Shown piece by piece: positions 19,812 through 21,923 of a stretch of 32,217 bases of DNA. Below the pieces are notes generated by a model that had not been told where the DNA came from, searched no databases, and saw only the letters and a program-made list of their open reading frames with translations. The stretch is from an uncultured Erysipelotrichaceae bacterium (GTDB lineage Bacteria > Bacillota_I > Bacilli_A > RFN20 > CAG-288): the NCBI GenBank assembly GCA_902772915.1, contig CACYCE010000005.1:1-32217 (forward strand). The letters are read 5' to 3'. The translations under genes and the position numbers were made by a program. Numbering within the stretch: the stretch's first letter is position 1; each line of letters opens with the position of its first letter.

Positions 19812-20036
19812 TTGAAAATCGCTATTAGATATTTATCGAAATTAAGTCACACCAAAAGAATCGCTCAAGCTATAGGTGAAACACTTAATATTGCTCCTGT
19901 ATCTATAGTTGACGAACCTGAACTCAAAGAGAAAGTGGATATTCTCTTCTTAGGTGGAGCACCTTACGCTAATGTCATGGATGATAAATTAAGACAATAC
20001 GCTTTAAATTTGAATCCTTTTGTAAACCTCATATAA
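19812..20036 (+). pseudogene. Flavodoxin-like gene, truncated after the N-terminal half
   Basis: The frame begins TTG AAA ATC and encodes MKIAIRYLSKLSHTKRIAQAIG, an FMN-phosphate-loop region of flavodoxin-like proteins. KVDILFLGGAPYAN, the second conserved strand, and KLRQYALNLNP follow. Similarity ends there and a stop comes at 20034-20036, giving 74 residues where about 150 are expected. The break is 4-20 bases from the hairpin at 20041-20075, so the island beyond probably replaced or split the gene. I find no convincing C-terminal half beyond 20830. No ribosome binding site is visible; an AT-rich -10-like stretch precedes the TTG. Confidence 0.6.
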
Positions 20037-20040
20037 GAAA

Positions 20041-20075
20041 AGACCCTCCTGTTAGTTTGTCTAACATTTGGGTCT
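20041..20075 (-). repeat. Structured hairpin B (left end of toxin-immunity island)
   Basis: Read on the minus strand: outer stem AGACCC/GGGTCT, asymmetric internal loop AAA (5') and GGA (3'), inner stem TGTTAG/CTAACA, terminal loop ACAAA. Every stem base pairs. It has the same layout as hairpin A (20799-20829) but a different inner stem. It is followed by CTTTTCTT on the minus strand and could therefore also act as a terminator for the immunity gene. Confidence 0.75.
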
Positions 20076-20129
20076 CACTTAAATCTAACGATGCTTGATT
20101 TCTTTAATATGCATATTAAATAGATTTGC

Positions 20130-20471
20130 CTATATAAGAGATTTAAGACGTTCTGATACCATATCTTCTATCTCAAAAGAACCATCGTTGATTTCGTTCA
20201 ATCTTTCGATAATCTTAGAAATTAAATCAAGTAATTTAGGCGCCAACTCTTTTTCCTTTTCCGAATCAAAACGCAACCCATCTGAGTTTGTTTCATCCTT
20301 TGAGTAAAGAGAACACCATAGCTCGTTGGCTTCTTTATCAAGAGAATTAATAATAGGATCGTTATCAACAATGGCGCTACCTGATGATTCATTACCATTT
20401 TCATCTTCATAATCTCTTAACAAAGGCCCAAATATAAATTCTAAGCCGATTTGAATAATAACTTTTTCCAT
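20130..20471 (-). CDS. Acidic small protein, putative immunity protein
   Basis: I recognise no family. The 113-residue protein is strongly acidic (27 Asp/Glu against 12 Lys/Arg), helical in its last third, and has no signal peptide or membrane segment. GGAGGT lies ten bases before the ATG, and that ATG overlaps the stop of the upstream toxin-like gene (TAATG). A small acidic protein coupled directly behind a small basic nuclease-like protein is the usual immunity arrangement of polymorphic toxins, so an inhibitor role is inferred from context. Alternatively it may be an unrelated protein of the island. Confidence 0.65.
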   Translation of the reverse strand: MEKVIIQIGLEFIFGPLLRDYEDENGNESSGSAIVDNDPIINSLDKEANELWCSLYSKDETNSDGLRFDSEKEKELAPKLLDLISKIIERLNEINDGSFEIEDMVSERLKSLI

Positions 20472-20791
20472 TATTTATTACCTCCACGATATTTTCTTGG
20501 ATAAGCGGTTTCAATGTAACCATTTTCTGCTATGCCATACCCAATCACATATTGCCCTTGATAATAATATTTGCTTCGGTAGCCTACAATATCATTAGAT
20601 TCGTGATAATTTGAAAAAATGAGTTTCCCTTTTGATATTGTATCACTAAGCAAAGCAGCTATTTGATTATTCTTTATTCCAAAAGATCGCTCAAAATCCT
20701 TGCCATGAGATTTAATAATGTGACTCAAGGCCCCTTTTTCCAGAAATAATTTATTACCATTTTCAAGTTTGAATTCTAATGTGTATTTCAT
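20471..20791 (-). CDS. Small putative RNase toxin (BECR/EndoU-colicin-like domain), stand-alone
   Basis: The 106-residue, net-basic protein has the pattern GALSHIIKSHGKDF (His24, Lys27, His29) in its first third. A central helical part (NNQIAALLSDTISKG) and two beta-strands ending in GYIETAYP (91-98) follow. An early H..K.H element plus a terminal strand with T-A-Y-P is typical of BECR-fold RNase toxin tips (EndoU/colicin D/E5-like) of polymorphic toxins. The exact family is not certain. There is no secretion or trafficking N-terminal domain. The start has an AGGAGG-type ribosome binding site that lies inside hairpin A. No promoter is seen in the 85 bases after aroF, so expression would depend on read-through from the aro operon. 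Confidence 0.65.
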   Translation of the reverse strand: MKYTLEFKLENGNKLFLEKGALSHIIKSHGKDFERSFGIKNNQIAALLSDTISKGKLIFSNYHESNDIVGYRSKYYYQGQYVIGYGIAENGYIETAYPRKYRGGNK

Positions 20792-20798
20792 GAAAAAT

Positions 20799-20829
20799 AC
20801 CCCTCCTCCTGTTGTCCAGGATTTGGGGT
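20799..20829 (-). repeat. Structured hairpin A (right end of toxin-immunity island)
   Basis: Read on the minus strand: outer stem ACCCC/GGGGT, internal loop AAA (5') and GGA (3'), inner stem TCCTG/CAGGA, terminal loop GACAA. The 3' arm contains the GGAGG that serves as ribosome binding site of the toxin gene, so folding would hide it. Shared with hairpin B: CCC/GGG, the AAA/GGA loop and ACAA in the terminal loop. Confidence 0.75.
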
Positions 20830-20876
20830 ACAGTTCACAATCGCACTTTCTGTCTTCGCTTCAATAAGAATTTTTT

Positions 20877-21923
20877 TTACAAGGATTTAATAATTCTCAA
20901 TTCTTTAGCTAAATCTAAAAGCAATTCTTCACTCTTCTCCCAGCCTAAGCAAGGATCAGTAATAGATTTACCATAGATTCCTTCTTCAACTTTTTGACAG
21001 CCATCTAACAAATAAGATTCAATCATTAAGCCTTTGATAATTTTTCTTAATTCAGGATTGTGTTTAAAAGAATGTATAACTTCTTTACAAATTCTAATTT
21101 GCTCTAAGTATTGCTTGCCGGAATTATCGTGATTGACATCGACGATAATCGAGGGATTTTCAAAATGTTTAGTTAAATATAATTTAGATAAATTTACTAA
21201 ATCTTCATAGTGATAATTAGCAAAATGTCTACCTTCATCATCAACGTACCCTCTTAAAATCGCATGAGCATAAGGGTTTCCTTTAGACTGAACCTCATAG
21301 CCTCTGTAAATGAAATTATGAGGGTGTTGAGCGGCGTTAATAGAATTTAACATGACAGTTAAATCCCCCGAGGTGGGATTTTTCATACCTACAGGTATAT
21401 CTAAACCTGAAGCGGTCATTCTATGTTGTTGATCTTCCACCGATCTAGCTCCAACAGCTACGTAAGAAAGACAATCAGATAAATATTGGTGATTTTCAGG
21501 ATAGAGCATTTCATCCGCGCAGGAAAAACCAGTTTCTTTAATAGCGCGCATATGCATCTTTCTAATGGAGATTAATCCTCTAACTAAATCTGGATCTTTA
21601 TTGGGATCAGGTTGATGAAGCATACCTTTATAACCCGCTCCAGTAGTACGAGGTTTATTAGTATAGATACGTGGAACGATAGTAATGACATCGTTAATTT
21701 TAGGATAAATATCTCTAAGTCTAGAAATATATTCAATAACTGCGTCTTCTCTATCCGCAGAGCAAGGACCAATAATTAAAAGTAACTTCTCCAATTTACC
21801 GGAGATGATATCTTTAACTTCTTGGTCGTTTCTAGATTTTATTTCCTTTAAATCATTACTAAGAGGATACATTCTCTTAAGTTCATCAGGAGTAGGTAGT
21901 TTTCTTTTAAATTCTAAATTCAT
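20877..21923 (-). CDS. aroF: 3-deoxy-7-phosphoheptulonate synthase (DAHP synthase, type I AroFGH)
   Basis: The enzyme condenses PEP and erythrose 4-phosphate, the entry step of the shikimate pathway. It has 348 residues as in E. coli AroF/G/H. Signatures are LLIIGPCSADRED near 48-60, PRIYTNKPRTTGAGYKGMLHQPDP around 85-110, VGARSVEDQQHR, MKNPTSGD and IVDVNHDNSGK. AroF, AroG or AroH type cannot be told from this, so the symbol is generic. It is the last gene of the aro operon, 0 bases after tyrA. No ordinary terminator follows before hairpin A. Confidence 0.94.
   Translation of the reverse strand: MNLEFKRKLPTPDELKRMYPLSNDLKEIKSRNDQEVKDIISGKLEKLLLIIGPCSADREDAVIEYISRLRDIYPKINDVITIVPRIYTNKPRTTGAGYKGMLHQPDPNKDPDLVRGLISIRKMHMRAIKETGFSCADEMLYPENHQYLSDCLSYVAVGARSVEDQQHRMTASGLDIPVGMKNPTSGDLTVMLNSINAAQHPHNFIYRGYEVQSKGNPYAHAILRGYVDDEGRHFANYHYEDLVNLSKLYLTKHFENPSIIVDVNHDNSGKQYLEQIRICKEVIHSFKHNPELRKIIKGLMIESYLLDGCQKVEEGIYGKSITDPCLGWEKSEELLLDLAKELRIIKSL

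Follow-up and report, generated by a model that had tools for sequence, protein, structure and literature searches.

Genes and features at the locus

Two small genes lie on the minus strand behind an aro gene cluster in the window (the whole 32,217-nucleotide stretch of DNA that was analysed). They are joined by a TAATG overlap and encode a basic and an acidic protein, with the positions, lengths and charges that the original prediction had given them. The features referred to below are:

20007–20080, minus strand: IS3-type left end, type B, 74 bp, in the same orientation as the type A end, cut after about nine orfA codons
20130–20471, minus strand: acidic partner ORF, 113 residues, pI 4.20
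20471–20791, minus strand: toxin ORF, stop codon included, 106 residues, pI 9.44; chimeric, with residues 1–10 (MKYTLEFKLE) encoded by the IS and residues 11–106 forming the BECR RNase domain
20471–20761, minus strand: toxin-derived part of that ORF, stop codon included; homology to the closest relative (locus L003) starts at KLEN
20762–20837, minus strand: IS3-family left end, type A, 76 bp, with terminal repeat TGAACTGTACCCC..., hairpin, ribosome-binding site, ATG and ten orfA codons
20788–20840, minus strand: leader hairpin that includes the ATG and the greater part of the ribosome-binding site, with a T-rich tract after the inner stem
20877–21923, minus strand: DAHP synthase (PF00793, E = 8.5e-46), the end of the aro gene cluster

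The DAHP synthase stop ends at 20877, 85 bases before the toxin ATG. A promoter scan of this region returned 10 promoter-like sites against 10.8 expected, none of them above chance, in agreement with the predicted promoterless gap; the aro cluster is the only evident source of read-through transcription into the pair. As also predicted, the toxin ORF has no N-terminal secretion module. No delivery backbone occurs in the window, and genome searches gave no second copy of either the toxin or the partner gene. The pair with its IS joint is known from one draft genome.

Two side observations concern the neighbouring genes. The DAHP synthase has a match in its own genome only and none in four further genomes searched from the genus (G019–G022), and members of the genus may therefore differ in having the aro cluster. 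On the plus strand, a 74-residue ORF (19812–20036) extends into the type B IS end, which seems to have cut it short; this ORF resembles a flavodoxin by eye, but has no Pfam match.

Toxin domain

Relatives of the toxin were found by alignment-based searches, single-sequence searches being insufficient: as a single query the window toxin gave no match in genome contigs, viral contigs, phages or plasmids, and Pfam gave weak matches to PBECR1 and PBECR3, under the cut-off. Toxin-domain profiles matched one solved protein, chain C of PDB entry 7M5F, a CdiA toxin (E = 3e-21 for a family profile of 33 sequences, 1.1e-17 for a 13-sequence profile and 0.022 for the window toxin as a single sequence). 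By profile comparison the toxin thus falls into the same BECR RNase family as CdiA-CT of Serratia marcescens BWH57, a toxin to which the depositors of 7M5F ascribe a BECR fold, with H47, E51, H52 and R89 as active-site candidates (PMC8616854). Both candidate histidines are retained in the window toxin, as H24 and H29; the positions of E51 and R89 are not kept, and vary across the clade. H24, H29, N90 and G91 do not vary in the 33-sequence alignment, all of whose invariant residues the window toxin has, and the motifs first noticed from the sequence (H..K.H and GYIETAYP) are real, as HIIKSH and NGYIETAYP.

An AlphaFold2 model of the toxin (pLDDT 86, pTM 0.78) runs in the order EE-HH-EEEE: a pair of strands at the N-terminus, then two helices, then a meander of four strands. 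What defines BECR domains is a four-strand meander preceded by a helical segment (PMC3482391), and the modelled toxin has this order of elements; profile and model together uphold the predicted BECR-type RNase tip and do not point to a different class of fold. Foldseek of the model against the PDB returned no BECR match of value; ketosteroid-isomerase-like matches were weak (TM about 0.25) and were treated as noise.

Acidic partner

The partner was modelled with a pLDDT of 92. Its best PDB fold match is chain A of 7M5F (probability 0.93, TM 0.55/0.62, but E 0.12), the immunity chain of the same complex whose toxin chain is matched by the toxin profiles. Sequence profiles of the partner gave no match reaching this chain, and Pfam recognized no domain in the partner, DNA-binding domains included. 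From the resemblance of its modelled fold, the partner is predicted to be a CdiI-like immunity protein. The toxin by profile and the partner by fold thus lead independently to two chains of one complex, which is the strongest argument for a toxin/immunity pair.

The toxin start within an IS3-family left end

Searching DNA with 20837–20762 revealed copies up to 99% identical, with matches in 100 of 273 genomes of the order. In type A copies the ATG opens MKYTLEFKLECVEKYKKG..., the transposase OrfA, and a full type A copy (L151) encodes OrfA (HTH_Tnp_1) and OrfB (rve), which places the element in the IS3 family. The hairpin pattern recurs within the genome, where a copy at the end of contig C41 runs on into ATGAAATACACATTAGAATTCAAACTTGAATGTATC. 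In the window, exactly ten codons are of IS origin, after which the frame goes straight on into the toxin; only 76 bp of the type A element are present, the rest of orfA, orfB and the right end being absent, and no inverse copy of the terminal repeat core occurs in the window. This corrects the original prediction in one point: the ATG, ribosome-binding site and first ten codons are IS DNA and not native to the toxin, from which the rest of the ORF derives. Misassembly at the IS end is unlikely: the genome has one other long copy, in C41, which with 93% identity and a 5-base insertion would hardly be confused with it.

The closest relative has KLEND at the joint (AAACTGGAAAAT), and we infer that the IS and toxin sequences may have met at or near a shared AAACT(T/G)GAA. 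Where the window has the IS residues TLEF, this relative has IIFIA, a sequence of its own. Residues 4–8 form a strand in the toxin model, and the IS-encoded residues are accordingly predicted, on the model, to form the first β-strand of the toxin.

The type B end on the other side of the pair comes from an element related to type A and has a 96% identical copy in another genome (G055 C16) and a 91% identical one in contig C16 of its own genome; intact relatives continue as OrfA MRFTKEFKLECIRKYKAG or MRYTKEFKLECIRKYKAG, and the hairpin at 20044–20072 belongs to this left end. The pair therefore has an IS left end on either side but neither right ends nor a transposase, and should not be mobile on its own. 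Explanation of the flanking hairpins as integron attC sites or as a separate RNA motif was dropped, both being IS3 left ends; Rfam gave nothing of value on the hairpins.

Solo IS3 left-end hairpins without transposase also occur elsewhere in the genome (G000). One, at C17:48089–48128 (L104, L108), is a palindrome of ~47 bp ending TGAACTGT...ACAGTTCA; another, at C14:17751–17801 (L103), closely follows a gene, as a terminator would. In this genome, IS ends may function as terminators or as small hairpins that are mobile.

Leader hairpin and expression

The leader hairpin has a minimum free energy of −27.4 kcal/mol (z −3.8), and the bases of the toxin ATG are paired with a probability of 0.78–0.98. 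The GGA of the Shine–Dalgarno stretch is unpaired, inside an internal loop; of the earlier claim that the ribosome-binding site lies in a hairpin arm, the cover of most of the site (and of the ATG) stands and the pairing of these three bases does not, so that some translation is possible. Across 25 left ends of both types, 93.9% of hairpin cells are paired, against 51–63% when the hairpin is slid, and covariation is 0.214 against 0.108 in shuffles. Judged by this alignment, the hairpin at the toxin start is a covarying leader that belongs to the IS itself. As a separate observation, both IS types (20801–20827 and 20044–20072) keep a constant 3 × 3 internal loop, with AAA opposite GGA, between flanking stems that covary.

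The hairpin runs out into a T-rich tract and may therefore act twice, by stopping transcription that comes in from upstream and by concealing the start. A simple terminator scan did not list it, probably because of the internal loop. From its predicted pairing, the leader should hinder translation of read-through RNA, and the toxin/partner pair is probably almost silent.

Relatives and DUF4417 operons

Within the order, about twelve genomes gave relatives of the toxin; scanning genome contigs with an alignment returned 44 loci, from Bacillota, Actinomycetota, Fibrobacterota, Synergistota and others. The gene order DUF4417–toxin–partner occurs in 26 of the 44 (for example L004, L007, L057 and L058; the first gene of L004 is DUF4417, PF14386, E = 4.5e-18). 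Operon toxins have 124–259 residues, the longest values stemming from mechanical ORF starts, and operon partners about 105–125 residues, often overlapping the toxin gene. The window toxin is without the N-terminal part found in these operon toxins, and the whole genome of the window has no DUF4417 match.

Eight further loci have the partner with a partial toxin and three the partner with no recognizable toxin; two have a toxin without a partner, and both of these run out at the contig edge. The partner is present in all clade relatives that have a complete toxin and enough downstream sequence, so that homologues encoded alone are not found among such loci, and this retention, with the fold match to the immunity chain, supports the predicted orphan pair of toxin tip and cognate partner. 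Trees group the window toxin and partner each with G042 (the genome of L003; support 99/96 and 98/93), which indicates that the pair was inherited together; deeper placement beyond G042 is not resolved in either tree. G042 also holds two tandem partner genes (L045; C20, 9672–10761) behind the toxin closest to that of the window, the contig ending within this toxin.

Full-length toxins ending in the same tip, which the original prediction had proposed to look for, do exist: the domain is the C-terminal end of longer proteins in L089 (over 2000 residues), L092 and L039, and plasmid matches of a relative fall in hemagglutinin-repeat proteins. In L039 (G521 C10, 6816–11388), adjacent genes share a long N-terminal stretch (LRGKYVDGLISLASAALSVAAD...) and differ in their tips, one of which is this BECR domain; L039 is a polymorphic toxin array in the same class.

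Among 27 DUF4417 loci of the order, the next gene often begins MGGRG, MGSRG, MGVR or MGQG and then diverges, and the third gene, for a small partner, is likewise variable (DUF4417 loci L172–L201 were noted for this); of ten such second genes, Pfam recognized almost none. These sequences suggest a wider polymorphic toxin-like system in which DUF4417 is the constant part. We tentatively propose, as a conjecture we would sooner doubt than adopt, that gut bacteria have a polymorphic toxin-like system, so far undescribed, of which DUF4417 is the hallmark and which consists of a constant gene, a variable-tip protein and a variable partner; the window pair would be a tip that has come free of this system and to which an IS3 left end has lent a new start and a leader that silences it. 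Among the papers searched, three mention DUF4417, and none describing it together with a toxin came up.

Interpretation

With the family of the toxin, the conservation of the partner, the IS origin of the start and the conservation of the hairpin computed as above, we consider it likely that the locus is an orphan toxin/immunity module of the CdiA-CT/CdiI type seen in BWH57, with an IS3 left end as its cap, and that it is all but silent. The BECR RNase domain would have lost its native start and N-terminal part and been attached, in the same reading frame, to ten initial codons of orfA from an IS3-family element, so that the IS left end would now provide the start codon, the ribosome-binding site, the first β-strand and the leader hairpin. 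RNA from the aro operon would meet a hairpin that resembles a terminator and in which the ATG and the greater part of the ribosome-binding site are masked as well, and the toxin and its coupled partner would for this reason be made at very low levels, if at all. Any toxin made would presumably cut RNA inside the producing cell, where the partner would bind and block it; no route for delivery is apparent, and the capacity for delivery would have been lost.

Decay offers the most serious competing account, a possible one that we nevertheless hold to be the poorer description: the toxin gene would be debris in the course of loss beside IS scars, with the partner alone (or neither gene) being kept, for example against neighbours that deliver the toxin. 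IS scars do flank the pair on both sides, other loci (L091, L094, L095, L097, and L040, L043 and L044 from the genome search) have an intact partner beside a toxin that is broken or missing, and the window toxin is only 41% identical to its closest relative whereas the partner is 65% identical to its own. Against this, the toxin ORF continues from the IS start in the same frame, is uninterrupted over the full length of the domain and keeps every residue that is invariant in the 33-sequence alignment, and the partner has no identifiable start signals besides the coupled ATG.

It is unlikely that the genes form an ordinary chromosomal toxin–antitoxin pair acting in its own cell, with the IS leader as a control element. 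Such a reading would suit a small coupled pair of basic toxin and acidic partner, as BECR toxins are common in toxin–antitoxin systems and the hairpin could serve as a translational switch, but the toxin gene precedes the partner gene, no promoter rises above chance, and the partner has no Pfam DNA-binding domain and is modelled with a CdiI-like fold. It is very improbable that the pair is kept silent as a spare tip, which recombination would move onto the delivery protein of a full-length polymorphic toxin: although the same domain ends the longer proteins of L089 and L092 and the tip-variable genes of L039, here it has no second copy in the genome, no flank in common with a delivery protein and, upstream, IS DNA in place of a recombination anchor, and with no DUF4417 gene in the genome and no delivery backbone in the window, the earlier picture of a simple stored unit of a polymorphic toxin array does not hold.

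If the pair is an orphan module capped by an IS end, it has some general meaning. Toxin tips that have become orphans usually have no start site for translation. This one obtained its start from the end of a transposon, and with it came a hairpin that would hold the toxin close to off and a peptide predicted to complete its fold. This would be a concrete route by which stray toxin domains are tolerated, kept or revived. The comparison also links the functionally open CDI toxin structure 7M5F to a common, unstudied DUF4417 operon of gut bacteria.

Comparison with known systems

With CdiA-CT/CdiI of S. marcescens BWH57 (PDB 7M5F; PMC8616854), the pair shares the toxin family, both candidate histidines and a partner model closest to the CdiI chain; it differs in that the toxin is detached from CdiA and takes its start and predicted first strand from an IS, that E51 and R89 are not kept and that the partner is not recognizable by sequence profile. 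The DUF4417–toxin–partner operons have the same toxin domain and partner family in the same order, whereas the window has neither the DUF4417 gene nor the N-terminal part of the toxin.

The upstream end agrees with IS3-family elements in terminal repeat, hairpin, ribosome-binding site, ATG and ten orfA codons, at up to 99% identity, but its frame continues as a toxin instead of orfA, and orfB and the right end are missing. In ISPpu9, a transposase leader hairpin hides the ribosome-binding site and limits translation (PMC8450116); the window leader likewise lies over most of the ribosome-binding site, but its control is predicted and the sequence behind it encodes a toxin domain.

Orphan cdiA-CT/cdiI modules lie behind a full cdi locus and are generally without translation start signals (PMC3150448). 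The window pair resembles them as a detached toxin tip followed by an immunity gene, with no delivery part, and differs in having DAHP synthase upstream rather than a cdi or rhs locus, and an IS-supplied start within a hairpin. With no full cdi locus ahead of it, we do not file the pair as such a module; by analogy, it probably works like one.
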